The position numbers and the translations under genes were made by a program. A stretch of 64,000 bases of DNA. Source: Providencia vermicola (lineage in GTDB: Bacteria > Pseudomonadota > Gammaproteobacteria > Enterobacterales > Enterobacteriaceae). Positions 5,757 through 33,193 of the stretch are shown one piece after another. Numbering within the stretch: position 1 is the first letter of the stretch; the number at the start of each line of letters is the position of its first letter. Below the pieces are notes generated by a model. That model saw nothing but the letters and a program-made list of their open reading frames with translations. It had not been told where the DNA came from and made no database searches. Location of the stretch: positions 3,537,001-3,601,000 of the forward strand of contig NZ_CP048796.1 of assembly GCF_010748935.1 (NCBI RefSeq), in the 5' to 3' direction.

Positions 5757-5963
5757 CACTACCCTGTAATAAATTTCGTGTGGCTAATTTCATTATTACC
5801 CTACTTCGCTGTTTTTTTCATCAAATAAAACAACGAACTGGTAATCTTGTGTGTTTCAATTTTATACGGCACTTTACAAACCCGTACTCATTGAAGTAAA
5901 ATTCCGCACCATTTTAAATGACGGCTGGTTGAATAAAGCCAGCAACAACCCGATTTCTATTGA

Positions 5964-6191
<228 letters not shown>

Positions 6192-6245
6192 TTTGGGCGC
6201 GGTAGCCACCGCAACCATAGCAGGCAGTATTAGTTAGCAGTTAAA

Positions 6246-6273
6246 GGCCGTGCTTTCCTGAGGGAAGCGCGGC
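6246..6273 (+). terminator. Internal attenuator between rpsU and dnaG
   Basis: GCCGTGCTTTCC, short loop, GGAAGCGCGGC: a GC-rich hairpin followed by TTATTAT rather than a full T-run. The E. coli operon has a partial, NusA-responsive terminator at the same place, which keeps dnaG expression well below rpsU and rpoD. Position and shape match; function is inferred from that precedent. Confidence 0.7.
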
Positions 6274-6308
6274 TTATTATCGTTCATCAACAGGCGAAAA
6301 AGAGGCTT

Positions 6309-8054: not shown

Positions 8055-8224
8055 TGAATACCAAACGGCTTAAGTGCCGATTTACTAAAGGCAAATGCCT
8101 GTAAAATGCTACGAAATTAAAGGGGCGTAGCGTAACAATAAAAATCCCCTTTGAATGTTCTTGTTGGCCGATTGTTTCGCCGACCGACACCAATCTAAAT
8201 ACTCAGAAGTGTGGATACCGTCTT

Positions 8225-10081
8225 ATGGAGCAAAACCCGCAGTCGCAGCTTAAGCTACTCGTAACCAAGGGTAAGGAGCAAGGTTACTTAACCTATGCTG
8301 AGGTCAACGACCATCTGCCGGAAGATATCGTCGATTCAGATCAGATTGAAGATATCATCCAGATGATTAATGACATGGGCATCCAGGTCATGGAAGAAGC
8401 ACCTGACGCCGATGATTTGATACTCGCTGAAACCACTTCCGATACGGATGAAGATGCAGCAGAAGCCGCTGCTCAAGTTCTATCCAGTGTGGAAAGTGAA
8501 ATTGGTCGTACTACAGACCCTGTGCGCATGTACATGCGTGAAATGGGTACCGTCGAACTCTTAACCCGTGAAGGTGAGATCGACATAGCAAAACGTATCG
8601 AAGATGGCATCAACCAAGTTCAGTGCTCTGTTGCAGAGTACCCTGAAGCCATTACTTATCTACTCGAACAGTATGACCTCGTTGAAGCAGGCGAAAGCCG
8701 CTTATCCGATTTGATTACTGGTTTCGTCGATCCTAACGCTGAAGAAGATTTAGCACCAACCGCAACACACGTTGGTTCTGAGCTTCCACAAGAAGAGTTG
8801 GATAAAGACGATGATGAAGACGATGATGAAGACGAAGACGGCGATGACAGTGATAGCGATGATGATAACAGCATCGATCCTGAACTAGCCCGTGAAAAAT
8901 TCGGTGAATTGCGTACGCAATACGAAAAAACGCGTCAGCACATTAAGCAGTTTGGTCGTAGCAATGCACAAACAGCACTTGCTATCGAAGAACTTTCTGA
9001 AGTCTTCAAGCAATTCCGTTTAGTGCCTAAGCAATTTGACTATCTGGTCAATAACATGCGTGAAATGATGGATCGCGTTCGTTTCCAAGAACGTACTATC
9101 ATGAAGCTATGTGTTGAACAGTGCAAAATGCCTAAGAAAAACTTCATCACGTTATTCAGTGGCAATGAAACCAGTGAAACTTGGTTAACAGCAGCCAAAG
9201 CGATGAACAAGCCTTGGTGTGAAAAGCTGCTAGAAGTTGAAGAAGAAATTTTGCGTTGTCTGCAAAGATTACGTCAAATTGAAGAAGAAACTGGCCTGAC
9301 AATTGAACAGGTAAAAGATATTAACCGTCGTATGTCTATCGGTGAAGCGAAAGCACGCCGTGCGAAAAAAGAGATGGTTGAAGCAAACTTACGTCTGGTA
9401 ATTTCTATCGCGAAGAAATATACCAACCGTGGTTTGCAATTCCTTGACCTAATCCAAGAAGGTAATATTGGTCTGATGAAAGCGGTTGATAAATTTGAAT
9501 ATCGCCGTGGTTATAAATTCTCGACCTATGCAACTTGGTGGATCCGTCAGGCAATTACACGTTCTATCGCGGATCAGGCTCGTACCATTCGTATTCCGGT
9601 ACATATGATTGAAACCATCAACAAACTGAACCGTATCTCTCGTCAGATGCTACAGGAAATGGGCCGTGAACCTTCCCCTGAAGAGTTAGCGGAACGTATG
9701 ATGATGCCGGAAGACAAGATCCGTAAAGTCCTGAAGATCGCTAAAGAGCCAATCTCAATGGAAACGCCAATCGGTGATGATGAAGATTCACATCTCGGCG
9801 ACTTTATTGAAGATAACACGTTAGAGCTACCATTAGACTCAGCGACATCAGAAAGTCTGCGTTCAGCAACTCATGAAGTGCTAGCAGGTCTGACGGCTCG
9901 TGAAGCAAAAGTTCTACGTATGCGTTTTGGTATCGATATGAACACCGACCATACCTTAGAAGAGGTGGGTAAACAGTTCGACGTTACGCGTGAGCGTATT
10001 CGTCAAATCGAGGCTAAAGCTCTACGTAAATTGCGTCATCCAAGCCGCTCTGAAGTTCTACGTAGCTTCCTTGACGAATAA
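8225..10081 (+). CDS. rpoD: RNA polymerase primary sigma factor RpoD (sigma 70)
   Basis: Housekeeping sigma factor. Region 1.1 is at the N-terminus. Region 1.2 starts at [12 protein letters not shown] very acidic Asp/Glu block lies at about residues 193-220 within the non-conserved region. Region 2 contains [15 protein letters not shown], region 3 follows, and region 4.2 contains [20 protein letters not shown]. Length 618 aa compares with 613 in E. coli. The acidic block is encoded by GAT/GAA repeats, which make a spurious antisense Ser-rich reading frame. Last gene of its operon; a strong terminator follows. Confidence 0.99.
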
Positions 10082-10101
10082 TGAGCCTTTAATTAGTCAT
10101 C

Positions 10102-10129
10102 AAACACCTGCTTCGGCAGGTGTTTTTTT
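10102..10129 (+). terminator. Rho-independent terminator of the rpsU-dnaG-rpoD operon
   Basis: AAACACCTGC, TTCG tetraloop, GCAGGTGTTTTTTT. A strong UUCG hairpin and T-run 20 bases after rpoD. It marks the end of the conserved backbone on this side. Confidence 0.95.
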
Positions 10130-10195
10130 ATGTCACTAAACGATAAATGACCATTTTAGTCATGACTTCATTAATCAGCATGTCATACATCAACA

Positions 10196-10471
10196 CTATT
10201 CACTGCCCAGTATTATCTCACAAGCAATTCTGTTAATTTCAATGAATTCATGCCATGTATATTGTTTGTGATAATGAAGCGAATACTGTTTATCGACACG
10301 GCAGATATCTGGACGCTCATCATAGATAGTACATAACATATTAGTTTCATTATAATTCTTACAAACGCCATCACCTCGATCAAGAAATTGAGTTTCATGC
10401 GCACGATCAACATGGCGGCAGCATGCCCCACATTTATCACAAGGAAATAGCGACTCGGTTTCTAAGCTCAT
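10196..10471 (-). CDS. Small CxxCxxCC-type cysteine-cluster protein (YkgJ-like)
   Basis: A 91-aa protein with FPCDKCGACCRH at residues 10-21, then GDGVCKNY, MLCTIYDERPDICR and a late IACE. This is the Cys pattern of the UPF0153/YkgJ family (PF03692, putative zinc or iron-sulfur binding), whose biochemical role is not established. Its ATG at 10471 overlaps the upstream stop codon in an ATGA, so translation is coupled to the preceding membrane-protein gene and the two should act together. It is the last gene of the 10.2-14.1 kb cluster. The family assignment is good; the role is unknown. Confidence 0.8.
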   Translation of the reverse strand: MSLETESLFPCDKCGACCRHVDRAHETQFLDRGDGVCKNYNETNMLCTIYDERPDICRVDKQYSLHYHKQYTWHEFIEINRIACEIILGSE

Positions 10472-12039
10472 AATGAGTCCAGCCACTCGCTGAATGAATC
10501 ATCACTTTCTGCATCAAAGGGCAATACAATATTATTTCTCTTAATTTCCTGATTGAGAATAATTTTTCGCTCATATTCTGAATTCGTCACTTGTAATGCA
10601 TTGGTAAATACCTGCATTTCAGTCACATTAAAGTTAAACTCGAGCTGAACAAGTTTGACAAGATATTCATCTAAAGCCGCATTAACTTCTCGGTAGTACT
10701 GTAATGTCAGCTCATATTTATTTCGGAATTTATTCAAAAAATTCCAAATTTTTTGCATGAACTCACTATGTTCTAAAAAATAACACATCGCCAATGTCAA
10801 TAAACCGGAAATCAAAACGCCAATAAATACTGCCACATCATTACCGAAAGGAAATGATAATATTCCATTCAAGTATGTTGTTATCATTGAACCTAAAATA
10901 ACAGAGATACTGGTCGAAATAATTTTAATGGCTGATTTTAGCAAATCGCCTAATGCTAAATTTTCAGGGTTAAAAAATAGTAGCTTAGCCGCTGAAAATA
11001 AACTATTTACTGACTCTCGAATTAATTTTACTATCAGTTTTGTGGATGTCAGGAAGATATTCAGCATCGTAGTTGTTACACTCGCTAATAGCCCACCAAA
11101 CAGCCCATTATTAAACTCAGTCCAAAAATCTTTAAAACGGACCTTTAATCTTTCCCAAATATTTGTAACAACATCCCTCAAATCTTCAATGAAGATTTTA
11201 AGTTTAAAGTTTGTTTTATGCTGTTCAATCAACTTCGGGATAGCGTCTTTTAATTCAAACCAAAGCTCTGCAAATACAATCCCTAGCATTTGCCTTGCTC
11301 CCATTCTCAACCCAGTGTTAATGGCCGCTGAGGCCGTATTCACAAAAAACTTACTGCTACTGTAGTACTTACGACTAATTTCAGCGTCATACTGTTTTCT
11401 GGCCTTTTTATCGATAGCCTCCATGACATCAAAATTGGCTTTTTGCTTATTCTTAAGTGTCTTGAGTTTTTTTAGCTCAATATCGGTTAGTTGCCCTTTA
11501 CTTTCTAACACATTAATTTCTGTTTTAATCTGTGTTTGCTGTGATTTTAAATTCACCATAAAGTCTGCCATTTTTTGGGCTTTTTTCGACTTATTTAATG
11601 TTTCATTCGTAAAGGTCAAATTTGAGTCACGGTTCGCTAAATCCGCACCATCAATTTCAGCAAGAACACGTGCAGGGTCATTATGGACCTCATAAGCGGC
11701 AATAATGTGATCAAGATTAGTCACATCTTGCTGACTAAAAGTTTCGCCAGTGTAAGAATCAATTAATTCACCGGATAATTTTTGTTGCTTACCTCTACGG
11801 TTTGTTTCTTTGTAGTTTTCATGACTGTGATATTCATGAGAATCGTATTGCCCACGATTCTCATAACGATCTTTTTCTACTTCTGTCGCCCAAATATCGT
11901 TTCTGACATTATGGATGGTATCAACATCGCCCCCTTTTTTATCTTTTAATAATAAAAAATCTAAACCAAAAGAAGTCACTAAACTTTGAACAATTGTATC
12001 GTTCACTTCCTTTTGCCAATTATAATTTTTCTGCTGCAT
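10468..12039 (-). CDS. Uncharacterised membrane protein with HNH-like N-terminal motif
   Basis: I do not recognise the family. From the preferred ATG at 12039 it has 523 aa (a GTG at 12069 would add ten). Near residues 108-150 it reads NLDHIIAAYEVHNDP, then ANRDSNLTFTNETLNKSK. The DH pair, a downstream NL and a terminal N...NKSK resemble the order of an HNH/beta-beta-alpha metal site, but the usual Cys pairs are absent. A charged, probably coiled-coil stretch follows (about 160-215). Several hydrophobic helices lie in the C-terminal half (for example LLKSAIKIISTSISVILGSM and FIGVLISGLLTLAMCYFL). It overlaps the cysteine-cluster gene by four bases and follows the glycine-rich gene by 54 bases. 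Confidence 0.75.
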   Translation of the reverse strand: MQQKNYNWQKEVNDTIVQSLVTSFGLDFLLLKDKKGGDVDTIHNVRNDIWATEVEKDRYENRGQYDSHEYHSHENYKETNRRGKQQKLSGELIDSYTGETFSQQDVTNLDHIIAAYEVHNDPARVLAEIDGADLANRDSNLTFTNETLNKSKKAQKMADFMVNLKSQQTQIKTEINVLESKGQLTDIELKKLKTLKNKQKANFDVMEAIDKKARKQYDAEISRKYYSSSKFFVNTASAAINTGLRMGARQMLGIVFAELWFELKDAIPKLIEQHKTNFKLKIFIEDLRDVVTNIWERLKVRFKDFWTEFNNGLFGGLLASVTTTMLNIFLTSTKLIVKLIRESVNSLFSAAKLLFFNPENLALGDLLKSAIKIISTSISVILGSMITTYLNGILSFPFGNDVAVFIGVLISGLLTLAMCYFLEHSEFMQKIWNFLNKFRNKYELTLQYYREVNAALDEYLVKLVQLEFNFNVTEMQVFTNALQVTNSEYERKIILNQEIKRNNIVLPFDAESDDSFSEWLDSL

Positions 12040-12050
12040 ATGCTTTACCG

Positions 12051-12079
12051 ATAAGTAGCAGCCGAGCACTGCTACTTAT
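12051..12079 (-). other. Perfect hairpin in the leader of the HNH-like membrane-protein gene
   Basis: ATAAGTAGCAG at 12051-12061 pairs with CTGCTACTTAT at 12069-12079: an 11-bp perfect stem with a 7-nt loop. No T-run follows on either strand, so it is not a standard terminator. It lies just upstream of the preferred ATG at 12039 and within a few bases of the previous stop, so it may set expression or mRNA stability within the operon. Confidence 0.6.
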
Positions 12080-12093
12080 AATTTATGATGTCA

Positions 12094-13170
12094 TTAAGAT
12101 AGAGTAAAACGCTCAGTTTCATCTAACTGTTTATCTAGGCAATCCTGATTGATAACTTTTAGCCCGTGGCTATCCGTTTCAATTTCGATAACGTCATCAA
12201 CGATAACAACCTCATTATTTTCATTTAATTTTGGCTTAAATAATGGTGTCGTAATTAGATTGGTCATAATAGCGGCGAGCTTATAGCCATTATTAATGGT
12301 CAATTTTAATTCATCCGTAATACCATGGGTATTTGTGTTGCCCAATGCTTTATTACGTTGAATTATCTTGTCTGCCTCTATAAGCGCCAATAAATAGGGT
12401 TTAAACACATTGAATTGTGCTTCCAAAACATGATAAATAGCGACAACATACTCTTTAGTTTTCGTTAAATTCTCATGTGCTAAAGTCATTTTTGCAACGG
12501 CACCATTAACTTCAGAACGAATTTTTCGAGCATTATCTAACGCTTTTTCGGCATGGGAATTATAAGCCCAACCCGCAATAGCTAAGATAGGAGCAACAAC
12601 GGCACCGCCTAACACCATTGCGCCACCGGCCATCCCCCATCCCCCAGCGGCCAGTGAACCACCACCGATAGCCGCCATTGTCGCATTATAAGCAGCCGCA
12701 CCTGAAAGCGCTGCAATTGGTGTTCCCGTCGATGCCGCGGCAAATGCCATCACACCGCCATAAACAGCAAAACCTGCCGCAGCACTTGATGCACCGGCAC
12801 CGACTAAGGTTCCTAGATACTCTGTTGCTGAAATCGCTAAGTTTTCAATTTTATTAATTTCATGACGAGGAATAGAGATAGAAATATCCTGTCCTGATTC
12901 ATTTAGCTGTTTTAATATTGATTGTGCGATAGTATTAAACTTACTGAAACTTTCACCAATTTGTAATTCAAGCGTACCTAGCTTCTCTAATTCATTGGTC
13001 GTACTGACATTAATAGATTCCAGAACCTCTTTATTTTCATCATAACGGCGTTGAGCTTTCGCTAACATATCATCCGCTTCTGATTTTGTTTGGTAACCGT
13101 CATAAGCTTTCTTTCCACCAAACGCGGCGGCAGCAATAGCCGCACCTGCAATAATAAATGGTATTGCCAT
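12094..13170 (-). CDS. Glycine/alanine-rich membrane-associated protein (unknown)
   Basis: A 358-aa protein that I cannot name. It begins with a hydrophobic segment (IPFIIAGAAIAAAAFGG) and continues with a helical, charged region (about 25-120). A long Gly/Ala-rich hydrophobic block of glycine-zipper type follows (about residues 125-210, including GGGSLAAGGWGMAGGAMVLG), then another helical region. Similar hydrophobic Gly/Ala blocks occur in poorly described proteins encoded beside GTPases and other defence-associated genes; that comparison is from memory. It lies between the WYL regulator (38 bases upstream) and the HNH-like membrane protein. The architecture fits an effector that inserts into or remodels membranes, which is inference. 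Confidence 0.75.
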   Translation of the reverse strand: MAIPFIIAGAAIAAAAFGGKKAYDGYQTKSEADDMLAKAQRRYDENKEVLESINVSTTNELEKLGTLELQIGESFSKFNTIAQSILKQLNESGQDISISIPRHEINKIENLAISATEYLGTLVGAGASSAAAGFAVYGGVMAFAAASTGTPIAALSGAAAYNATMAAIGGGSLAAGGWGMAGGAMVLGGAVVAPILAIAGWAYNSHAEKALDNARKIRSEVNGAVAKMTLAHENLTKTKEYVVAIYHVLEAQFNVFKPYLLALIEADKIIQRNKALGNTNTHGITDELKLTINNGYKLAAIMTNLITTPLFKPKLNENNEVVIVDDVIEIETDSHGLKVINQDCLDKQLDETERFTLS

Positions 13171-22479: not shown

Positions 22480-23450
22480 CAGGGTAGCGAGGGCGAGTTT
22501 TATGGGTTTAAACTTCATTCAATGGTTAATGTTCTGCGCAACTAAATCAGGACCTTTTCTTAAGGAATTTTGTTCATAGTCAATGGGTGGCAGATCACCG
22601 TTGGGAGTAAGAAGCCTTTCTATGGTGTAATAGCGCATATCGAGATAACATCTCCTTTCATCAGCTTTCCGTTATGGCCGAGGGATTTTCAGTACCCAAT
22701 CGGGTTTAAACTACCAAAAAATCGTTCAACAACGGCGCTATCCCAACAGGCTCCGACATCGCCCATACTTGCTCGAATTCCATAACTTTTCTGTAAGTGA
22801 CGATAGCGCTTACTCGTATATTGTAATCCCTATCGCTATGAAAGACTAAGCTTTTTTCGGGGTGACGTAAGTTATACGCTTTCATCAAGGTCTTACTGAC
22901 TAAAACTGCCGTCATCCGTTTATCGAAATGCCAACCTACAAGACGGAGTGAGTATAAGTTCATCAGGATGGCGAAATACATCTAGCCATCCCCCTTTTAT
23001 AAATAGGTCACATCACCCGCTCACACTGCGGGGAGCGCGTGAGGATTAGAAATTGTGTTTGCTCAAATTGCTCGACGACGGCATCACGGTGTTACCGTTC
23101 GGTGGTGACTTTCTAAGCAACACGCGGAGTGACGACTAGACCAAGCGGAGCCATTAGCCTTTGGACGCCATAAGCGCTCAGCTCATGCCCTCTTTGCATA
23201 ACCGTTGATTAACGTTCTGTTCCCTAAGCGATTTCGACTCTGTTCAAAGATAATTTCATCTCTTCGGTACAGGCAAAGTTGTTCTGCGGTGATTTAATTC
23301 AGCAGGGAGTTGAAGCCAGGCGGACTAGGCTGAACGACTAGTTAAGCCAATCTGAGCGCGGCATCACGCCCATGGATAGACAATTGGTTACACGTTTTTA
23401 TCGATACTCGGTTTCCTAGAACAGGAGCGCGCTGGTTTGTTTTATGATCT
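22480..23450 (-). pseudogene. Decayed IS3-family transposase (OrfB) remnant
   Basis: On the minus strand, scattered frames carry recognisable pieces of an IS3-family DDE integrase: GDVTYLYKGG-like residues near 23010, GWHFDKRMTAVLVSKTLMKAY and VFHSDR near 22850-22930, SMGDVGACWDSAVVERFFGS near 22710-22770, and an RYYTIERLLTPNGDLPP-like C-terminus near 22600. Each block is in a different frame or is cut by stops, so the element is dead. Terminal inverted repeats could not be fixed, so the limits are approximate. It abuts the adhesin end of the fimbrial operon. Confidence 0.75.
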
Positions 23451-23879
23451 CTTTCTCCATCCTAATTTCTTTATTATATTATCGAAGCGCTAATAGCTCA
23501 GCTCTTGCATCGGAATCCATGTTCTAACCAGACGGAACAGCAACGAGTTCCGCTCCAGGTGTAACAGAAACTAAAAACCGGAAAATGTAAAAGAGGCCAC
23601 CGATGTTGGACATATGTTTAACTGCGTACGGCGGCCTAAAGTGGTACCCAGATGTAATAATATATCGGAGTAGAGTAAACAGGTCGGTATACGATAGGCG
23701 GGGAATAGATTCATGATAATGAAGCAAGAGTTCGGTCTTATTTATGCAGGTCAGAACAACAAAAGGGTGGAAGATAATATACAGCAGAACCTCAGAGGAT
23801 TAATGGAGCATTTACTCAGTGAAGGATAATTCGGCAATCGATGGAGGGGATGTGGTCCAAGCGAGTGCCGAACATTTAA
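23451..23879 (-). other. Gene-free stretch downstream of the adhesin gene
   Basis: About 430 bases between the IS3 remnant and the adhesin stop. A 67-codon minus-strand frame (23524-23727) exists but has no ribosome site and no recognisable domain. Composition is richer in G+C than the flanking AT-rich DNA and resembles the 3' half of the adhesin gene. It may be a leftover of an older adhesin 3' end or a template-like segment; I could not align it to the adhesin by eye. Confidence 0.35.
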
Positions 23880-24797
23880 TCAATTATATGATGAGGTCAC
23901 TATCACATTGCCTGATTTCGGTCCCGGACTTAAGAACCCGGCGGCGATAAATTTCATCACCACGAGGGAGTTAACCCCGGTAGTGACACTGGAGGAACAG
24001 CTAGCCCCTTGTTCATTACAGAGGTTCGAGGTAAGAATCCCGTCACCAATTGCGGTGGTTTCATTTTCGATCTTGAGGACAACCGCATTGGGTACATCTG
24101 GCCCCGAACACTGTATCTTAATCTGTTCGGAGTATTCAGACGGACCGGTGGTGAGCCCGATCAGGCCCATATCGATCGTCGGAGGGATATCGATGGAGCA
24201 GGTGTAGTTAGGGACGGCAGAGGGCGAACCGCAAGTCCTCCAGTATTGGTCACCAGTAGTGCATCGGCCATAAAGGTAGTCATAATCACGACCGACGACG
24301 GAGACATAGACTCTTATCCCACTTTCCATACCATGATAGGCTCCCTTGAGACGCATGTTGGTGTTGCTGAAGGTACCAATACCTACCCCGAGGTCAAGGA
24401 CGGCGGATAGGCAATCGCGGGGGTCTTTGCGTTTGAAATGGCCTGTACTTGACGGGGTGAAACCAGCAGGTGTCGCCCCACCGGTCCATGCAGGATAGCC
24501 AGAATGGTAAGTAAATTCTGCACGTAATTCCAAGTCGCAGGGCTGAAATTTCATCAAAAATTCCGCGGTTAGTGCCCCACCGAGAGAAGGAAACCATTGG
24601 CCGTTCACTGAGATGTCGCGATATTCATAATTATATTTATAGGGGCTTTCAATTTCAGAACAAGCGGGGTAGGTATAAGAGCAATTAGCGATCCCCTCAT
24701 AAATATTTAACTCCGGAGTCGCAGGAGACGAGGAAAACGACGCAAGTAGAATAGTTAGAATAGAGGAAGAATGGAGTAGGCGTGCGATATTAATCAT
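23880..24797 (-). CDS. Fimbrial tip adhesin (MrpH-like, two-domain)
   Basis: A 305-aa secreted protein with an N-terminal hydrophobic signal (INIARLLHSSSILTILLASFSS). A Cys-rich receptor-binding domain follows (about residues 30-200, with TYHSGYPAW and GAYHGMES). The C-terminal pilin domain starts near NYTCSIDIPPTIDMGLIGL and ends GNVIVTSSYN, the usual donor-strand end. Its place as last gene of an MR/P-like operon fits MrpH, the tip adhesin of Proteus, whose lectin domain uses histidines to bind zinc. I choose ATG at 24797 (ribosome site AAGAAAGAAC). Most of the gene is clearly richer in G+C than the rest of the operon, a sign of exchange or special variation. Confidence 0.75.
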   Translation of the reverse strand: MINIARLLHSSSILTILLASFSSSPATPELNIYEGIANCSYTYPACSEIESPYKYNYEYRDISVNGQWFPSLGGALTAEFLMKFQPCDLELRAEFTYHSGYPAWTGGATPAGFTPSSTGHFKRKDPRDCLSAVLDLGVGIGTFSNTNMRLKGAYHGMESGIRVYVSVVGRDYDYLYGRCTTGDQYWRTCGSPSAVPNYTCSIDIPPTIDMGLIGLTTGPSEYSEQIKIQCSGPDVPNAVVLKIENETTAIGDGILTSNLCNEQGASCSSSVTTGVNSLVVMKFIAAGFLSPGPKSGNVIVTSSYN

Positions 24798-24852
24798 ATG
24801 TTCTTTCTTCTTCGCTGGCTGTATCTTTACGATACAAAGATAAAATGAAACC

Positions 24853-25764
24853 CTACACTTGTCTATTAACACAAGCTTGCTCATAAAGCCGTAGGCGTTG
24901 TTCTTTTTCAATTTTTCGTTCTTTTGCACGGGCTAATGAACGCGGTGAACGGGTCGTCTCAGTCGCCGTAAACCACTGACCTAACCAATCAAATCCCTTT
25001 TCTATCCGTCCCATTTGGGTCTTATCCGGGTGACAGGTAAAGCCATCTAATGCCAAAGAACCTTGTAAATCTGCTATCGCACGCTTTAAGGGCCAGCGCG
25101 TTGGCGATAACAGCAAAAAATCATCCATATAGCTTTCATAAAAAAGACCTTTTCGGTTTGCTAATTCGTTATCCAGTGAATATAAATAAGAGCCGCCAAT
25201 CAATGGACTCAGGGCACAGCCACGGCAGATACCGCGTGCCAACATATTAAATTCACCACCTTCTTCTACACTGTAATCGATATACTGAGACAATAAGTTT
25301 AATAGTACGGGTGAATCTGTGTATTGCTGACACCATTGCCATAAACGTTCTTTTGGGAAGTGTTCGTAATATCCTTTTATATCCGTACGATAAACAAATT
25401 GATATTCCCCACCCGCTATCGCCAGTTTTGTCGCCAAAATTGAACCCTGTACACCACCATGGCCTTTTAGGTGACGACAAGTGGGATGTTTTGGCAATAA
25501 TGGTGTTAAACATAAAGTTAGCCATTTAAGGGCTAATGCATCTTCTGCACACCATTGTACCGTTCGTCGCCCATCCCAAGTTGTAATCACTTCCATCGGC
25601 TTCAAGTGATATTGGCCTAAACGAATACGTTGCCATAACACCTCACATTTTGTTTGCCAATGAAAACGCAGGTGCCAAACGTCGGTATTAGCCGGATAAT
25701 GTTGCCGCCGTTGACAAAGCCAGTGATAGGCTAATATCCAATTGTGACGCCACTTATCATTCAT
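24853..25764 (-). CDS. Reverse transcriptase embedded in the fimbrial operon
   Basis: A 303-aa RNA-directed DNA polymerase. Finger/palm motifs in order: YRTDIKGYYEHF (first catalytic Asp, about residue 126), RGCALSPLIGGSYL (RT motif 4), YESYMDDFLLL (the YxDD box, about residue 217), then CHPDKTQMGRIEKGFDWLGQWF (motifs 6-7). There is no maturase, endonuclease or integrase domain. Its ATG lies inside the 3' end of the preceding fimbrial-subunit gene (8-base overlap, ATGAATGA) and the adhesin gene follows 55 bases later, so it is translated as an operon member. The RGxxLSP box differs from the (I/V/L)GxxxSQ of diversity-generating RTs and from the QG of group II introns. Class is unassigned. Confidence 0.9.
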   Translation of the reverse strand: MNDKWRHNWILAYHWLCQRRQHYPANTDVWHLRFHWQTKCEVLWQRIRLGQYHLKPMEVITTWDGRRTVQWCAEDALALKWLTLCLTPLLPKHPTCRHLKGHGGVQGSILATKLAIAGGEYQFVYRTDIKGYYEHFPKERLWQWCQQYTDSPVLLNLLSQYIDYSVEEGGEFNMLARGICRGCALSPLIGGSYLYSLDNELANRKGLFYESYMDDFLLLSPTRWPLKRAIADLQGSLALDGFTCHPDKTQMGRIEKGFDWLGQWFTATETTRSPRSLARAKERKIEKEQRLRLYEQACVNRQV

Positions 25765-26305
25765 ACACTAGGGTATAAGTCAGCGTAGCGCTAAACCAAC
25801 CAGGCTTAATGGTTTTATTTTTTAATGCATCAGCATCCGCTTTTAAATAAGCACGTATTGGAATAACCATATCACCGTCTTTAATTGGATAAATAGGCTC
25901 AACTTTCGCATCATTAATAGGTAATGGCTTACCACTCATGGTTTCTAAACCGATCACTACTCCACTGGCTTCACTTTCAGGATCAAATTTTAATAAGCCA
26001 TCCGCTGTTGCATTCCCATTAAATTTAGCTGAGATGGTATTACCTAAAGAGGTGTCGCAATCATCAAGATAAAAATCAAACTCTTTATCGCTATATGCGC
26101 CACGTTGCCCTGTATATAAGTCTTTCGCATTAACGTTCTCACCAAAATAGACATAACCATTTTCAGAGCCAGGATTAACAGTACAAGGCAAGGCAATCAA
26201 ACTACCGCTATATTCGATGGTATTACTGCTTTCAGCAAAGCTAGCTGAAGGTAATATCCCCATTAAGGCAAAAAGAAAACCACTAATAAAACTCTGCTTT
26301 TTCAT
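25757..26305 (-). CDS. Fimbrial minor subunit
   Basis: A 182-aa exported pilin: signal peptide KKQSFISGFLFALMGILPSASFA, Cys in LIALPCTVNPGS and later DDCDTS (the conserved disulfide), and a C-terminus ending TLTYTLVYE with the penultimate Tyr motif recognised by the chaperone. I take ATG at 26305 because AAGGAG lies six bases before it. It overlaps the reverse transcriptase gene. MR/P operons have adaptor subunits (MrpE-G) before the tip protein; this extra pilin probably serves the same purpose. Confidence 0.8.
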   Translation of the reverse strand: MKKQSFISGFLFALMGILPSASFAESSNTIEYSGSLIALPCTVNPGSENGYVYFGENVNAKDLYTGQRGAYSDKEFDFYLDDCDTSLGNTISAKFNGNATADGLLKFDPESEASGVVIGLETMSGKPLPINDAKVEPIYPIKDGDMVIPIRAYLKADADALKNKTIKPGWFSATLTYTLVYE

Positions 26306-26315
26306 CATCAGCTCC

Positions 26316-26840
26316 TTAGGGATACAACATTTGAACTGTTGCCGATGCAGTAAAATCACCTTCAAATAAAGTTATCTTAGGGTCGCGAACAGGAACGGCA
26401 TATAAAGGTAATGTTGCGGTTCCATTGCTAGACATCTTTATTGGAGAGCCCGTATTAGGCGCAATGACAACGCCTTCATGATAAAGACGGATACCTAATC
26501 CATTGATGCTTGTTCTTAACGCTTTATTATCAAAAGAAGCAATAAAAGGACTCATATATTGCAAATAGAGTGGGACTGAATTACCTAATTCAGGCCCACA
26601 ACTTAAAGTTAAAGTAAAATCCTGTTGGTAGTTAACGCCATCAATTTTAGTAATACCGATTTCACCAAAATCAACCTTAATTGGCTGGTTAGGCCCTTTA
26701 AGGCCAGCGACATCACAAGGCGGATTTTCAATTAAATTTCCTGAAAAATTAACTTCAACCGCCTGCGCGGTACTAAGTGTCAATAATGCTACACCGCCAA
26801 GTAATCCTAATACCCTATTCTTAGAACTCTGAATGAACAT
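26316..26840 (-). CDS. Fimbrial minor subunit (MrpG-like)
   Basis: A 174-aa pilin with signal peptide (ending STAQA), the NPPCDV...LSCGPE cysteine pair and a beta-strand end ASATVQMLYP. Its ATG overlaps the previous stop (TAATG), so it is coupled to the upstream subunit. In MR/P fimbriae such proteins form the adaptor region between rod and tip. The exact correspondence to MrpG is by order and general resemblance only. Confidence 0.8.
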   Translation of the reverse strand: MFIQSSKNRVLGLLGGVALLTLSTAQAVEVNFSGNLIENPPCDVAGLKGPNQPIKVDFGEIGITKIDGVNYQQDFTLTLSCGPELGNSVPLYLQYMSPFIASFDNKALRTSINGLGIRLYHEGVVIAPNTGSPIKMSSNGTATLPLYAVPVRDPKITLFEGDFTASATVQMLYP

Positions 26841-27397
26841 TATTGATACTCCACGCTTAGTGTGCCCGTTGCAGTAAATTCACCACCACGAATTCCCCCT
26901 GCATCACTAGGTACAGGAACCGCCATTAATGTTGGCTTTGTTTTATAATTAAAAGGAAACCAATCCCTTAATTTTAATTGTTGGCCATTTGCCGTTATTT
27001 TAATCGCTAGGTTATTGTCGGTTGTTTTTAATTTTCCAGCTTCCTTAAAGGTACTATTTGGCACCGCCTGAGCATCCACACCTATAAACTGGATTTTTAA
27101 CGCAGGGTTATCTGCTGCATCTTCACAATCTAATTGATATTCAATTGGTGTAGCGCCATATGCTATACCATCAATATTCCTAATCACTAAATCAGGGAAA
27201 GTCACTGTAATAGGGCCATTCTTTCCCCCATTACCATAAATATCGCAGGTTTTTTCAACAACAGTCACTTTTACTTGAATAGTAAAAACTTCAGCGCTAC
27301 TTTGCCCACTCACTAGCAATAATCCCCCCGAGATCATTGCTGTAAGTAATGATTTCACTGGCCTGTAGCCTACTATTTTTTTTGTGATAGAATTCAT
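26840..27397 (-). CDS. Fimbrial minor subunit (MrpF-like)
   Basis: A 185-aa pilin from ATG 27397, which has GGGGCGGAAG as ribosome site; an upstream ATG overlapping the previous gene's stop is less likely. Signal peptide ends SGQSSAE. Two Cys (EKTCDIYGNG, LDCEDA) and a terminal TATGTLSVEYQ strand are typical of chaperone-usher subunits. Placed by order as MrpF-like. One-base overlap with the next gene. Confidence 0.8.
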   Translation of the reverse strand: MNSITKKIVGYRPVKSLLTAMISGGLLLVSGQSSAEVFTIQVKVTVVEKTCDIYGNGGKNGPITVTFPDLVIRNIDGIAYGATPIEYQLDCEDAADNPALKIQFIGVDAQAVPNSTFKEAGKLKTTDNNLAIKITANGQQLKLRDWFPFNYKTKPTLMAVPVPSDAGGIRGGEFTATGTLSVEYQ

Positions 27398-27407
27398 CTT
27401 CCGCCCC

Positions 27408-28040
27408 TTACTCATAAATCATTTCAAAGGCGATCAGTGCTGAATACGCACCCGGTTCTAATGGCCCAGAGGTTCTTACTGGAGTCACATAATAGGTCAG
27501 CTTATCTTGTCCAGAAGCTAGCAATATAGGGTTACTTTCTTGACCTAATGGCAAGGTTTGACCTTGGCTATCACTAAGCACTAAGCCTATGCCTTGTGCG
27601 CCATTCACTCGCGCATAGTTCGGCATAAACGGAACCGTGGGGGCTAAAAAACGCACTTTGACTGCGGGTTGCGTTGAACTCCAAGCCGTTTGCCCTGTTT
27701 GGACGTTTTCTAGTGACGTTGGTGTTTCTAAACAATCCAGTAACTCAATTTGAAAGGGGATAGGACGGCCTTGCCCCCCCGTACCTTTAAAATCCGCCGT
27801 TTCAGCGTTGCCGAGTAAGACAGATTGATAACTTGAAGTCATTGCTAATCGGCATGGGCTTTCAGTCAATGAACCAGACACATAGAGCACACCATGTTGA
27901 CCATCGGTATTCCAATTATCGACAGGACGGTACAAAGCACGGTTATTATCATCTGCAAATGCAGATAAGCTACTTGCCCCTGCAAATAAGCAAGCTAAAA
28001 GGCTGTTGCGAATATGCTGAGTCAATTTTTGTTGAGTCAT
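27408..28040 (-). CDS. Fimbrial minor subunit (MrpE-like)
   Basis: A 210-aa pilin from ATG 28040, which follows GGAGAG; upstream codons lack a ribosome site. Signal peptide ends SLSAFA. The ESPCRLAM...LLDCLE cysteine pair and terminal YSALIAFEMIYE match fimbrial subunits of the MR/P operon. It is larger than the average pilin, with a Pro-rich segment around residues 130-150. Located between the chaperone gene and the MrpF-like gene. Confidence 0.8.
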   Translation of the reverse strand: MTQQKLTQHIRNSLLACLFAGASSLSAFADDNNRALYRPVDNWNTDGQHGVLYVSGSLTESPCRLAMTSSYQSVLLGNAETADFKGTGGQGRPIPFQIELLDCLETPTSLENVQTGQTAWSSTQPAVKVRFLAPTVPFMPNYARVNGAQGIGLVLSDSQGQTLPLGQESNPILLASGQDKLTYYVTPVRTSGPLEPGAYSALIAFEMIYE

Positions 28041-28084
28041 GGTTCTCTCCTTTCCATTCATGCCGACAGGCCTGAGATAATCGA

Positions 28085-28825
28085 TTATTTTGTTTCAGTA
28101 ACAACCTGACAGCTTGATGCCTGACAACGGAAATTCAGCTCTGGACGACCACCGTAATCATTGATATACGTCAGTACCGGTGAGTTACCCAGCTTACTAG
28201 CACTTACCCCGAGATTTTCACTCGCAAAAGGCGCAACCATCACTGGCGTAAAATCTTTTGCGTCGGATTTTGCGGTTGCGCCAGCATTAATAATGGTGAC
28301 GTAGTAAGGCGTTGGGTTCTTCAACATCACCGTTTCACCCTGTTTTTCTAAAGTGAGTTTATCTTGCGCTGGTGCGGCATTTTTCTCAGGAATAATGGCT
28401 TTTGGGCGATAAAACAACTTCACTCGAGTTTGTAAAGCAATTTGCAATGTGTTCGGCTTATCGCTTTTGGGTGGAATTTCACGCAAGTTAAAGTAAAACA
28501 AACTCTCACGGTCATTAGGCAGCATATTGGCTGCTGGCAATGCTTCAATTTTGACTTGGCTTGATTTACCGGGCTCTAAGCGTTGAACAGGCGGTAATAC
28601 CACCAGTGGTGAGTTGATTTTTTCGCCTTCTGCGTTTTCCATCCAACCTTGAGCCAAGTAAGGCAACTGCTTATTGTTATTGGAAATATTTAATGAGATG
28701 GATTTTTGACCGCCATCATAAATGACGCGGGTGCGATCCATTGATACCGCTGCATGTGCAACCGAAGAACACAGAACAAGACCCGTTAAACTTGCAACAA
28801 CACTGAGTTGAGTTATCTTTTTCAT
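28085..28825 (-). CDS. mrpD: Periplasmic fimbrial chaperone (PapD/MrpD type)
   Basis: A 246-aa exported protein: signal peptide ends SSVAHA; the first Ig-like domain includes the subunit-binding strand (SQVKIEALP) and the FYFNLREIPPKS signature of PapD-family chaperones. The second domain ends with two Cys (FRCQASSCQV). It delivers folded subunits to the usher by donor-strand complementation. I use ATG at 28825 to start at the signal peptide. Follows the usher gene by about 160 bases. Confidence 0.9.
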   Translation of the reverse strand: MKKITQLSVVASLTGLVLCSSVAHAAVSMDRTRVIYDGGQKSISLNISNNNKQLPYLAQGWMENAEGEKINSPLVVLPPVQRLEPGKSSQVKIEALPAANMLPNDRESLFYFNLREIPPKSDKPNTLQIALQTRVKLFYRPKAIIPEKNAAPAQDKLTLEKQGETVMLKNPTPYYVTIINAGATAKSDAKDFTPVMVAPFASENLGVSASKLGNSPVLTYINDYGGRPELNFRCQASSCQVVTETK

Positions 28826-28988
28826 GCTGTAGTAACCTATTTTTTGTTGCTCGGTTAATCTTCCGAGCAACCTATTTACATTAAAAACCGATTGTTAATC
28901 ACACTTAACGTTGCGTAATTTCTTGAGGCTGAGTACTCGCAGCCACAATAGGGACACAAGGTAATAACAGCGCTTGTTCAAGTGAGCC

Positions 28989-31448
28989 TTACTGTGCAGG
29001 GAAAGTCACTTTACAGGCCTTATTTTCGCCCCATGTCACCGTCATCGCATCCCCTGGATTTATACCGCTGATATAAGCACTACCCGCATCCCCGACAATG
29101 CCTGTATTTTGGTCTTTGGCATTTTTTACCTGCGCACCAAACGGTGGATGTGAACCATCAGTCAAACTTAGAATCGTCATGGCTTTCTGACCTGATACCA
29201 CCTCAAAGCGGCGGAAGCCAACCGCTCCTTCGGTCATAGTAGCTTGTACCACGGACTGCTGGGCATCCACGTTATCTGGCAGTTTATTCAAATCAATCTG
29301 TGCTTTACTGCGGTAGTAGCTGTTCACATCACCCACGACCGCTTTACCAAACATATTAGATTCTACTGGAGCCCCAAAACCTTTGATTGGTACGCCTGCG
29401 ACGCCATCAGTATCCACCACCATACGTGTCCCCCCCATCGAGTTCACACGATGGAAGCCTCCACCTTCAGCCGTCATGGTAAAACCACCTGATGCCGATA
29501 AACCATAGGCACTGTATTGACCATGTTGATAGCTGGCATTAGCACTGACCCGAGCAATGTCTGCTTGATGGTTAACAAATGCACTGGTTGAAGCCCCGTA
29601 ACGGCTACTCCCCGCACTGACTTGATAGGTCGTACGGTCATCAATGCGGTCATAATAAGTAGCACGGTTAGTGGTATCATTACGGCTAGTATTTAATGAG
29701 TAACCAACGCTACCCGTATTTCCCCAAGGGAAAGAGAGTGACAGATAAGCACTATCATCATTCACACCGTTATAAACACTGCGGTTTGCTGATAAGTTAA
29801 TGCTGATATTTTTAATCGAGCCAATATCCATATACTTCGAGAGCATCACACTGTAATAATCATTACTTGGACGATCCCAATAGGTTTGGTGGTTATAGTT
29901 GGCATACAGAGACACCCCCGCGTCACGGAAGTTTTTGTTAACGGAGATCGTATACAGCTCTTTACTTCCGCCGTAACGTACGCCGGTTTCTTTCGCATTC
30001 AAGTAATCTGACATTGACATAAAGTCACGTTCAGAGAAGCGATAGCCCGCAAACTGCACTTGGCTATCGTACTGTTCAAAACGCTTTGAATAGTTAACAC
30101 GGTATGAACCACCACTAATGGTGCTTTCACCCGGTAAACGTGCAAAAGACTGCGTTACGTCAAAAGAGACGGCACCAAAGGCCAGTAAGTCACGTCCGAT
30201 ACCTGCTGATAAGGCATTATAGTTTTGACTATTTAAGCTCCCACCAAACAGTGACCAACCGTTGTTGACCCCCCAAGAGAACTCCCCTGTTAAGAAGCTA
30301 TTCCCTTGACTATGACGGTCATAATTAGTTGGTTGACCTAACGCTAATTTATATTGAACCTGACCCGGACGCGTTAAGTACGGTAGATTTGCCGTATCAA
30401 CTTGGAATTCTTGTACAGAACCATCTTCTTCTTTAATCGTGACATCAAGTTTACCGTTGATAGCATCACTCAGGTCTTGGATCCTAAATGGCCCCGGTGC
30501 GACTTGAGTTTCATATAAAATTCGTCCTTGCTGACTCACCGTGACGGTTGCGTTAGTTTTGGCGATACCTGTCACTTCCGGTGCATAGCCACGTAAGCTT
30601 GGTGGCATCATATTGTTATCTGAACGCAAACTTGCCCCTGTAAAACGGAAGCTGTCAAACATATTCGATTCAAGATAATCTTCACCCAGCGTTAATTTAG
30701 CTTGCAATGTTGGAACTGCACGATAAGCGTAGAAACGGTTCCATTGGAAATCTTTATCTGTTCCTGCGTTTTTACCATTTTGATGGCTTAAACGACCCTG
30801 CCAATCTGCACGCAAGCGCCATGCACCTGCGTTAATCCCCACAACGCCATTACCATTCACTTGATAACTGTTGTTACCACCTTTACGGTAAGAGTTATTT
30901 GCATTGGCATTGATACTGTAATCAGCCAGAATCGCTGGAATACCATCATCCCAACGCGAGGGAGGATCCCAATTAGGTGCCGTATACTCCATATAGGCTT
31001 GTGGAATACTGACATACAGTGATGACGTTGCGAGATCACCGCGGATCTGCATGCCTGGTAGACTTTCAGGGTTTAAACACTGCCCATCATGCCACCACGT
31101 TAACTCTTTTAGCGATGATGAGGTCAAAGCAAGTTGATTAATATATTCAGGCGCTAAACAGGCTACACTGCCTTCCGGATCATTCTCGGGAACATAAAAT
31201 GGCACACTGATTTCAGGTAATGTTTCATCATTCACTTTCAGTGTTAATGAATAAGTTCCTGGCATAATATGACCAGCGCGCGCAAACTGATTTAAATCAA
31301 TGTTACTTTTGTCTTCGAGGTCTAATACATCGGTATTAAATTGAATAGCTTCTGCCGCTATAACAGGTAAAGCGACCCCGTGAAGCGCCATCGCAATAAT
31401 CACGCTCAACAAGCGAGGCTTTGGTAAACAAGCATTGAACAAAGACAT
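28989..31448 (-). CDS. mrpC: Outer-membrane fimbrial usher (MrpC/FimD family)
   Basis: An 819-aa usher. The N-terminal chaperone-binding domain is seen as IQFNTDVLDLEDKSNIDLNQFARAGHIMPGTYSL. The beta-barrel has the family strand LRGYAPEVTGIAKTNATVTV and the plug-like RILYETQVAPGPF segment. C-terminal domains end FGAQVKNAKDQNTGIVGDAG...KACKVTFPAQ. I choose ATG at 31448 because AGGGATGT lies nine bases before it. It catalyses ordered subunit export and assembly. Confidence 0.93.
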   Translation of the reverse strand: MSLFNACLPKPRLLSVIIAMALHGVALPVIAAEAIQFNTDVLDLEDKSNIDLNQFARAGHIMPGTYSLTLKVNDETLPEISVPFYVPENDPEGSVACLAPEYINQLALTSSSLKELTWWHDGQCLNPESLPGMQIRGDLATSSLYVSIPQAYMEYTAPNWDPPSRWDDGIPAILADYSINANANNSYRKGGNNSYQVNGNGVVGINAGAWRLRADWQGRLSHQNGKNAGTDKDFQWNRFYAYRAVPTLQAKLTLGEDYLESNMFDSFRFTGASLRSDNNMMPPSLRGYAPEVTGIAKTNATVTVSQQGRILYETQVAPGPFRIQDLSDAINGKLDVTIKEEDGSVQEFQVDTANLPYLTRPGQVQYKLALGQPTNYDRHSQGNSFLTGEFSWGVNNGWSLFGGSLNSQNYNALSAGIGRDLLAFGAVSFDVTQSFARLPGESTISGGSYRVNYSKRFEQYDSQVQFAGYRFSERDFMSMSDYLNAKETGVRYGGSKELYTISVNKNFRDAGVSLYANYNHQTYWDRPSNDYYSVMLSKYMDIGSIKNISINLSANRSVYNGVNDDSAYLSLSFPWGNTGSVGYSLNTSRNDTTNRATYYDRIDDRTTYQVSAGSSRYGASTSAFVNHQADIARVSANASYQHGQYSAYGLSASGGFTMTAEGGGFHRVNSMGGTRMVVDTDGVAGVPIKGFGAPVESNMFGKAVVGDVNSYYRSKAQIDLNKLPDNVDAQQSVVQATMTEGAVGFRRFEVVSGQKAMTILSLTDGSHPPFGAQVKNAKDQNTGIVGDAGSAYISGINPGDAMTVTWGENKACKVTFPAQ

Positions 31449-31494
31449 AAGTAACATCCCTAAAATTCAGTATCAGGAAGAATCAGCATTTTTA

Positions 31495-32028
31495 TTAGTA
31501 GTAGTCGAGCTTAAAACGAATCGCTGTCTGGTATTCTCCTGGACGGAGCGGCGTTTCATCTGATACCAGTCTTAAACCATAATTAAGAATATAATTACCG
31601 GGTTTGATATCTTGTTTTGCTGTCGCTAAACCAGGTCTAACTATCTGTCCTGACGCATCTTGCAATGATAGAGCGACACCTTTTGCTGCACCTGAAACGC
31701 TGAACCATTCACCATTTGCAGGGCCATCAAAAGTGACAGAAAAAGTTTGCCAATTGTCGCCATCTTGGGGAGTTAATTGACAACCAATCAAGGTGATCGA
31801 AAAAGGCTGTATAGGTCCATGCCCAACTTGGCGTAACAAACCAATTGGTAAAATACCCATATCAATAGATTGCTCATAAGAGCCTGTATCAATGGCACAA
31901 GCGGTATCAACGATGCTACCTTGCATACTCACCTTACCCCAAAGTTCCCCTGGAGCCGCATGTACAGGCATTGCGCCTAATGCACTAACCGACAATAGTG
32001 CTGCCTTTAACAGTCCTGTTCGCTTCAC
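31495..32028 (-). CDS. mrpB: Fimbrial subunit (MrpB-like rod anchor/terminator)
   Basis: A 177-aa pilin. The best start is GTG at 32028, preceded by a near-perfect GGAGGTGATC ribosome site; in-frame ATGs upstream lack one. Signal peptide ends AMPVHA. Cys in VDTACAIDTG and LIGCQL, and an end TAIRFKLDYY. In MR/P fimbriae the second gene encodes the subunit that ends rod growth and anchors it. Role by position. Confidence 0.8.
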   Translation of the reverse strand: MKRTGLLKAALLSVSALGAMPVHAAPGELWGKVSMQGSIVDTACAIDTGSYEQSIDMGILPIGLLRQVGHGPIQPFSITLIGCQLTPQDGDNWQTFSVTFDGPANGEWFSVSGAAKGVALSLQDASGQIVRPGLATAKQDIKPGNYILNYGLRLVSDETPLRPGEYQTAIRFKLDYY

Positions 32029-32101
32029 GATCACCTCCATTACTGAATAAGTCATGAAGTGCAAAAGCACTTCATGACGTACATACCTTAATTTTTAAAA
32101 A

Positions 32102-32626
32102 TTAGTTGTATGCTAAAGTAAAGTTAGTCACCGCAGAGAAGTTGCCTGGAATAACAGTTGCACCAGCAAGGCCTTTCAGAGCAGCTTGGAATTTCAGTTC
32201 GTTGCTACCTTGAACATAGTTTTGAGTGCTACCAGCGTTAACATTGATTTGTGCGCTAGAAGAGTTCATGATTTTGACAGCTGCACCCGCTGCATCACCA
32301 GTGATTTGCAGTAAACCCGTGTTTGCTGCTTCGCCATCAACGGCTTCTGTACCCGCGAAAGTGATAGTTACTTGGTTATTTTTTTCCAAGTTACAACCTT
32401 CCAATTTAATAGAGAAAGGTTGCGCTGAAGATTCACCACCCGCAGCCAAAGTGACGTTAGAAACTTGGCCCAGCTCAACAGTCTGGTTTTCTTCACCTGG
32501 CGCGATTGAGCAAGGTGCTTCGATGATTGAACCGTTAAACGTTACAGTACCTGAGCCTGCATCAACAGCTAAAGCCGATGCACTTATTGCGCCAGAAATC
32601 AGGGTTGCTAAAATAATCTTTTTCAT
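32102..32626 (-). CDS. mrpA: Major fimbrial subunit (MrpA-like)
   Basis: A 174-aa pilin: signal peptide MKKIILATLISGAISASALA, Cys in IIEAPCSIAPG and LEGCNL, a low-complexity Ala/Gly-rich body and a terminal VTNFTLAYN strand. First structural gene of the operon, separated from the upstream regulator by a hairpin terminator. The major subunit makes the rod; its high expression fits its position and strong AAGGCGTAACC-type leader. Resembles Proteus MrpA. Confidence 0.88.
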   Translation of the reverse strand: MKKIILATLISGAISASALAVDAGSGTVTFNGSIIEAPCSIAPGEENQTVELGQVSNVTLAAGGESSAQPFSIKLEGCNLEKNNQVTITFAGTEAVDGEAANTGLLQITGDAAGAAVKIMNSSSAQINVNAGSTQNYVQGSNELKFQAALKGLAGATVIPGNFSAVTNFTLAYN

Positions 32627-32833: not shown

Positions 32834-33193
32834 TTAGCCGATTAAATTATTCATCTTTGCTGACAGAGCATTCTCACCTTTATAGTAAGGAGCTGGAGGC
32901 AAAAATAAATTAATATAATGAGAACTGACATTCTTTTCCATATCATTAATATTAAGATAAACCGAACTGAAGAAATTACTTAAACTACAATCTAACTCAT
33001 GTAAAATAACAAAGAGAGTATCAACATTAATATTGCAGACCCCTCTTTCATACCGAGATATTTGCTGCTGAGAGACATTTAATTTTTCAGCTAACTGTTT
33101 ACCCGTCAACCCTCGCTTCTTCCTTAAGCGAAATATCTCTTTTCCTACCGCAGTCATAAAAATACTTTTTGACACTTCTTGTTCCACTATCAT
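32834..33193 (-). CDS. XRE/MrpJ-type transcriptional regulator
   Basis: A 119-aa protein with a Cro/C1-type helix-turn-helix (residues 20-75: RLRKKRGLTGKQLAEKLNVSQQQISRYERG) and a short C-terminal tail. The SQQQ(I/V)SRYERG stretch is the recognition-helix motif of MrpJ, the Proteus fimbrial regulator that represses motility while fimbriae are made. In Proteus mrpJ is the last gene of the operon; here it comes first. A ribosome site (GGGAGCC) supports ATG at 33193. Confidence 0.85.
   Translation of the reverse strand: MIVEQEVSKSIFMTAVGKEIFRLRKKRGLTGKQLAEKLNVSQQQISRYERGVCNINVDTLFVILHELDCSLSNFFSSVYLNINDMEKNVSSHYINLFLPPAPYYKGENALSAKMNNLIG

Follow-up and report, generated by a model that had tools for sequence, protein, structure and literature searches.

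A UG4-class reverse transcriptase in a fimbrial operon of Providencia vermicola and the variable surface-protein genes found at the 3' end of such enzymes

What does a reverse transcriptase (RT) do inside a chaperone-usher fimbrial operon? The question is raised by a stretch of 64,000 nucleotides from Providencia vermicola (NZ_CP048796.1, positions 3,537,001 to 3,601,000), which is called the window below and in whose numbering the features of this operon are given. The RT gene (24853..25764, - strand, 303 amino acids) overlaps the stop end of the preceding fimbrial subunit gene (26365-25757) by 8 bp, and a junction of 55 bp (24798..24852, - strand) leads from the RT stop to the ATG at 24797 of an adhesin-like open reading frame (ORF) of 305 amino acids (23880..24797, - strand). 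An earlier note on this DNA had described this layout, quoted the motifs DIKGYY, RGCALSP, YMDD and FDWLGQW, and called the RT an operon member. The window sequence confirmed the coordinates, the 8-base overlap and the 55-base gap, all the motifs were present in the translation, and the RT was one of eleven - strand genes, overlapping the last subunit gene. From comparison with related loci we consider it rather probable that the RT drives diversification of the adjacent gene, as a diversifier like the diversity-generating retroelements (DGRs) that would work without a template repeat.

By its profile scores the window RT is a member of the RT class UG4: against the PADLOC profiles it matched UG4 with E=1.3e-124, and the second-best family with 8.3e-24. 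RVT_1 was its sole Pfam domain at E<=0.01 (1.7e-15), and in an alignment of 28 UG4 RTs the core residues of the RT motifs were invariant or almost so. In a midpoint-rooted tree, the root serving for drawing only, 34 UG4-type rows including the window RT were split from five group II-type RTs by a branch with support 98/97. Of the phylogeny that the earlier note had called for, this covers the grouping with UG4 against group II-type RTs; retron and DGR rows were not in the tree. The profile scores and the tree also agree with the earlier opinion that the RT is not a passing intron. A group II intron was not supported, given a TIGR04416 score of 70 bits against a cut-off of 300, no Rfam match above threshold and the position in the RT tree on the UG4 side. 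A retron was not supported either, with 18.6 bits for the St85 profile (cut-off 235) and no Rfam family at gathering score in 22500-26500, although Rfam need not cover all retron RNAs. The RGxxLSP box does differ from the (I/V/L)GxxxSQ that the earlier note gave for DGR RTs, but the "separate type" deduced from it is not new: it is class UG4, which was already in print by 2014 and whose fimbrial neighbours were noted by 2021. Fimbrial genes co-occur with UG4 at 66% according to Table 4 of PMC8934634. Among open-licence PMC papers, covered by titles and the starts of abstracts, we found no function for UG4 and no RT-linked variation of a fimbrial adhesin; non-fimbrial surface proteins, both orientations, fusions and adjacent hypervariation of UG4 loci were not found in print.

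UG4 RTs usually hold their 3' end against an adhesin or other surface-protein gene, in either orientation and sometimes fused to it. An usher, chaperone or inverse autotransporter was present near 39 of 55 UG4 loci but near only 1 of 20 control RT loci taken from genomes of relatives (Fisher 4e-7), and the order of RT before adhesin, noted earlier from the window, thus recurs. The 55 loci are a fetched set and no census. They include 27 of the 40 listed plasmid hits among 166 records, and 23 of the 55 come from plasmid records; several are from one genome (Budvicia) and hence not independent, and the near-duplicates L080, L082-L085, L089, L090 and L094 were removed together with short search loci at the same places. 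Counted automatically by a crude signal-peptide criterion, an exported ORF stood at the RT 3' end in 39/55 UG4 and 7/20 control loci; this count gives "none" for the window because the ORF finder begins the adhesin ORF inside the RT.

The systems beside UG4 RTs included Mrp-like operons, F18/Pef-like operons, a plasmid locus near cable-pilus genes, a class-5 (TcfC-like) usher locus (L035/L080) in which an IS110 element now stands behind the RT, and a K88-like gene with a Pfam match slightly under the cut-off. Inverse autotransporters were found beside UG4 RTs on Salmonella plasmids and an invasin-domain protein in Budvicia, and in two genomes UG4-like RTs face PEP-CTERM-type genes (L061 by Pfam, L062 and L063 by eye). 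The RT-adjacent gene carried an MrpH_C domain in L032 and, below the cut-off, in L096. In co-directional operons the RT was upstream of the adhesin; the invasin, K88-like and PEP-CTERM genes were convergent, with their 3' ends against the RT 3' end. In Klebsiella pneumoniae ATCC 13883, Klebsiella sp. and Cedecea (L091, L092 and L093; about 5900-8100) a single ORF of about 700 amino acids spans RT and adhesin. In the midpoint-rooted tree, 21 co-directional fimbrial loci formed a group with 100/100 support and most convergent loci branched elsewhere, which suggests that orientation changed and adjacency to the RT 3' end was kept. No surface-protein gene was seen directly at the RT 3' end in L035 (insertion sequence, IS), L056, L097, L098 and L169.

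Some further loci are recorded here for their own sake. In L057 the RT tail is fused with an adhesin-like stretch. L097 and L098 are UG4-like RTs from Coxiellaceae metagenome-assembled genomes with 31-33% identity to the window RT. L169 (3954-5279, E. coli chromosome) is an RT ORF of 441 amino acids with a non-RT tail; pyocin and anti-phage Hhe genes lie nearby, and no annotated fimbrial gene was present within that stretch. The plasmid of L068 carries a second UG4 RT (NZ_CP056698, 124324-125166).

Substitutions of every type, silent changes among them, were dense in the gene adjacent to the RT; they started directly after the RT and, in informative pairs, thinned out with distance. Ten of 11 pairs of related loci, from about six clades, kept an identity of 0.8-1.0 through the RT and then dropped to 0.3-0.65, taken per 100 bp, immediately after it; the remaining pair, L035/L080, represents one locus included twice. 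Sharp drops at the RT end were also found in L092/L093, L088/L031 and the window compared with its nearest relative, G214. In this last pair, identity was mostly 0.65-0.9 across the operon and 0.75-0.80 over the tail of the RT; from the 55-bp junction onward it was about 0.41.

Two E. marmotae plasmids, L068 and L066, were identical from inside the RT up to the adhesin ATG+8. Differences ran from ATG+8 to the last adhesin codon; two followed in the roughly 110 bp behind the stop, and about 16 more in the next 200 bp or so, a region that is IS-like as judged by eye and by an annotated transposase. Silent divergence (pS) was 0.418 in the adhesin and 0.006 in the RT (a single silent difference, 214 codons). 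For L073/L074 the corresponding values were 0.65 and 0.061, and a non-silent divergence (pN) of 0.009 in the RT indicated purifying selection on it. Silent divergence of this size is not produced by selection on the protein alone, but an imported old allele could account for it. Taken per 50 codons along the adhesin, pS was.55.70.53.44.18.15 in L068/L066,.34.58.50.14.10 between the tandem copies of L031, and.61.64.81.75.56.35 in L073/L074; in the first two it fell with distance from the RT. In the convergent Budvicia pair L048/L051 it climbed toward the RT (.12.29.43.72.69.81.59).

One pair appears as a snapshot. The E. albertii plasmids L072 (NZ_CP043259) and L082 (NZ_CP030785) have about 8.8 kb in common, and 12 of 12 substitutions lay in the adhesin ORF inside 198 bp, 11 of them inside 99 bp, with a few single-base gaps besides. 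Nine codons were altered, six to another residue and three silently. The chance of such clustering under random site placement was about 1e-17. A search for a donor allele among 72,556 plasmid records returned, for other records, only matches to the first 126 bases or so (RT tail and leader), and 5,426 E. coli genomes gave no match. The L068 adhesin likewise had no relatives among the 72,556 plasmids except one sister allele. Together with the 10 of 11 pairs and the silent divergence, this cluster bears out the local hypervariation of adhesin genes that the earlier note had asked about.

The substitution spectrum was taken from regions that could still be aligned; the remaining pairs had too few alignable sites. 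Transitions and transversions (Ti:Tv) stood at 42:62 and 17:31 in the targets of two pairs versus 42:18 and 148:73 in the operon and RT controls of the same pairs. The L031 tandem copies, which have no control of their own, gave 15:35, and the related L044/L031 operon pair gave 285:186. All six substitution types occurred in the targets, and adenine was involved in 68/104, 36/48, 25/50 and 19/48 target differences and in 8/12 of those in L072/L082. Adenine-directed mutagenesis, the signature envisaged earlier, was rejected: adenine took part in 50-75% of the differences across three co-directional sets, L048/L051 gave 40%, and the share in two controls was 53% and 48%.

Codon adaptation was scored against the usher of each locus, and the adhesin was compared with the preceding gene. 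The adhesin was less adapted in 21 of 23 RT loci (mean difference -0.115, p=3e-6), all of them co-directional and including a broken RT (L055) and an RT remnant (L059), as against 9 of 20 RT-less operons of the window genus (mean -0.002, p=0.87); the two groups differed with p=7e-5. In a second RT-less set from other genera, 5 of 11 adhesin picks were below the preceding gene (p=0.97). Of the 17 loci in this set, 6 lacked a gene of adhesin size, and L216, L218 and L222 were dropped by eye as evident non-adhesins before pooling. With the 8 of 11 genes kept, the pooled comparison of RT loci with 28 RT-less genes gave p=1e-4 (Mann-Whitney U, MWU); rounded values were used, hence 7/20 where the unrounded count is 9/20. 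Both groups are phylogenetically clustered, so the p values for this codon scrambling are optimistic. Among the RT-less operons of the genus the three strongest scrambled cases (L197, L198 and L200) belong to a single operon type. Of these, L198 holds a weakly matching decayed UG4 RT fragment (E=5e-5) between the last subunit and the variable adhesin, at roughly +3840 to +4190 behind the usher. A host-independent base composition of the adhesins was rejected, adhesin GC at third codon positions (GC3) being correlated with RT GC3 (r=0.53, 28 loci).

A fuller scheme is offered more tentatively, as a joint proposal that falls somewhat short of probable: UG4 would be a second, independent kind of targeted protein diversification in bacteria, a minimal retro-mutator without a template repeat that acts on the gene at its 3' flank in either orientation, with RNA of that gene as the template. 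It would have been built into Mrp-, F18/Pef-, K88-like and class-5 fimbriae as well as inverse autotransporters and PEP-CTERM surface proteins. The RT-adhesin pair would then form a cis-acting diversification module. Its template would be RNA from the 3' flank of the RT, that is, adhesin mRNA at co-directional loci and antisense RNA at convergent ones. The UG4 RT would copy this RNA into error-rich cDNA, and a mutant cDNA patch would be recombined into its own locus, rewriting some 100-200 bp per patch; with the target as its own template, a separate template repeat would be unneeded. Selection would retain those adhesins still able to fold and bind, and in the window the target would be the tip adhesin of a Mrp-type fimbria. 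The fixed border at the RT end and the fading effect fit cDNAs sharing one end there, and both orientations fit because an RT read-through transcript would span the neighbour as mRNA or as antisense RNA. A role of the RT is favoured by several features in combination: silent divergence bounded by the ORF, the snapshot cluster, the spectrum, the codon scrambling, and an adjacency that recurs in unrelated surface-protein systems.

Several results weigh against this explanation. No template RNA, primer or integration step was identified in the sequence analysis, and no match above threshold to an Rfam family pointed to a conserved RNA element at the junction, no covariation search having been made. 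Three other near-identical pairs had 1, 0 and 0 substitutions in the adhesin region, so that a cluster was found in one of four, and six goat Shiga toxin-producing E. coli plasmids were 99.9-100% identical over 4 kb around the RT and the downstream gene; the process would therefore be intermittent, or these sets are too young. The convergent pairs L048/L049 and L075/L078 were near saturation throughout, which leaves the gradient in one of three convergent pairs and lowers our confidence in the full cis model. In the convergent target of L048/L051, Ti:Tv was not lowered (33:15; control 134:94). Conservation of the pilin or invasin domain partly confounds the silent gradient, the spectrum shows no adenine specificity, and the substitutions are unpolarised, so related alleles may still have been imported. 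Furthermore, the window RT is without the final 25 or so residues (RVxxYExRWxxWA region) present in most UG4 relatives and has a long branch in the tree (1.15), and this copy may be altered or decaying; in the congener G214 the RT has lost its front half and the adhesin frame is still open. As a separate observation, the UG4 RT genes of L066, L031, L055, L080 and L081 matched in at least two frames or pieces, with differing break sites. Judged from such sequences, decay of UG4 RTs seems common.

The role of the RT as the cause of adhesin variation is unproven on these comparisons because RT-less operons also replace their adhesins. The main rival, which we regard as unlikely, is ordinary adhesin evolution by homologous recombination in conserved flanks plus selection, the RT being a bystander carried in the same cassettes. 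In the RT-less pair L192/L193, where no RT was found, usher pS was 0.06 and adhesin pS 0.65, and the adhesins were 25% identical throughout, which by sequence is whole-gene adhesin replacement without an RT. The RT-less pair L201/L202 had an adhesin pS of 0.27 and an usher pS of 0.03, and the adhesins of RT-less L210 and L212 were clearly scrambled with no RT remnant detected. The 23 of 55 loci from plasmid records, where exchange is easy, would also suit a bystander. Hypervariation alone is therefore no proof of an RT role, and these cases lowered our confidence. However, an import in L068/L066 would need ends near both ORF borders, the L072 and L068 adhesins are without relatives in the 72,556 plasmids except one sister allele each, and the adhesins of RT-less L204-L209 were about as conserved as their ushers. 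Scrambling moreover tracks the RT (MWU 1e-4), with an RT-remnant locus within the L197/L198/L200 type, and a bystander leaves the adjacency to invasin and PEP-CTERM genes unexplained.

A second rival keeps the RT but not the mutagenesis: adhesin mRNA of co-resident or incoming cassettes would be copied and the cDNA would convert or multiply cassettes, the divergence itself being old. In the S. marcescens plasmid p14VA2 (L031), tandem adhesin genes (10031-10804 and 11559-12335) are each preceded by a copy of the RT 3' tail and leader, and another short RT tail copy follows the second adhesin; their lectin halves differ and their pilin ends are about 95% alike. L044 has a second adhesin behind an RT-tail remnant. 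These cassettes and the patch-like difference of L072/L082 speak for such retro-recombination. We nevertheless hold it to be improbable, since no donor allele was found in 72,556 plasmids and 5,426 E. coli genomes, the genome of the window has no second adhesin copy (besides itself only a weak 27-bp match), and the low Ti:Tv in three of four targets together with the codon scrambling points to a mutagenic step. That UG4 would be a phage-defence RT in fimbrial operons, with fimbriae as phage receptors or with regulated expression, is very improbable: PADLOC files RT_UG4 under defence-associated reverse transcriptases (DRT) and parts of PMC8934634 present other unknown-group RTs as defence systems, but around the RT there was no Rfam match above threshold, a surface-protein system lies near 39/55 loci, and RT-adhesin fusions exist.

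The template-repeat-free diversifier that we prefer can be set beside known systems. A structure search with the AlphaFold model of the window RT (predicted local distance difference test 88) gave G2L4 (9d4s) and group II (6ar3) RTs as nearest, with a DGR RT (8ub7) at rank 8. The predicted fold matched G2L4 best (E=1.1e-14, template modelling (TM) score 0.76 by query), but identity was 15%, the lengths are 303 and 408 residues, and the kind of neighbour is fixed in UG4. As in DGRs, an RT stands beside a variable ligand-binding protein, and the predicted fold aligned with 8ub7 at TM 0.74 by query. Unlike DGRs, the window RT has RGCALSP (mostly CALSP in the UG4 alignment), with SP and not SQ, no Avd was found among ten window proteins in a Pfam scan, and in UG4 targets there were no adenine-only changes and most of the target ORF differed. 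With the adhesin as query no template repeat was found in its own genome, and 22600-26400 held no repeat like the template and variable repeats of DGRs; a classical DGR was rejected on the missing template repeat and the presence of all substitution types. Class 1 DRT enzymes, DRT1 for example, are RTs of unknown-group origin. Parts of two reports (PMC13275509, PMC13174585) describe untemplated or semirandom DNA synthesis by some of them. Those enzymes act in phage defence, whereas the neighbours of UG4 RTs are adhesins. Within UG4 itself the window RT conforms in sequence class, tree and fimbrial neighbours and differs by the missing C-terminal residues, about 25 in number.

The last ORF of the window operon is probably the tip adhesin, as inferred from its position, size and signal-peptide-like start (by eye). 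It shares its operon position with MrpH-type tip adhesins but had no detectable MrpH_C match, and Pfam gave no match to it even at E<=10. No match was found among the 72,556 plasmid records, nor at E<=0.001 in 23 other genomes of the genus. Its GC was 0.50, GC3 0.51 and effective number of codons (ENC) 55, compared with GC3 0.31 and ENC 43 for the subunit preceding the RT.

The eleven-gene fimbrial cluster (33193-23880) lies entirely on the - strand, in the order helix-turn-helix (HTH) regulator, two subunits, usher, chaperone, four minor subunits, RT and the 305-residue ORF. The regulator (32834..33193, HTH_3 match) stands upstream of the operon and is followed by the probable major pilin (32102..32626, PF00419 E=3.3e-17), another fimbrial subunit (31495..32070, PF00419) and the outer-membrane usher (28989..31457), which has usher relatives in congeners. 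The periplasmic fimbrial chaperone (28085..28870) was assigned without a domain scan, from an operon position equal to that of annotated chaperones elsewhere; as a tblastn query it retrieved annotated chaperone-usher loci. Three minor subunits (27408..28061, 26840..27415 and 26316..26840, all PF00419) precede the last fimbrial subunit before the RT (25757..26365, Fimbrial PF00419), whose best NCBIfam match was StfG (E=8.9e-19), far under the StfG cut-off. A transposase-like fragment, IS3-type by eye, lies about 0.9 kb behind the adhesin (22981-22706).

Should the proposed diversification hold, an RT class known for a decade by no more than its sequence and neighbours would gain a function. Targeted hypermutation of proteins in bacteria would then need neither a template repeat nor adenine specificity, and a possible account would be at hand for changes of receptor specificity in some plasmid-borne fimbriae and invasins.
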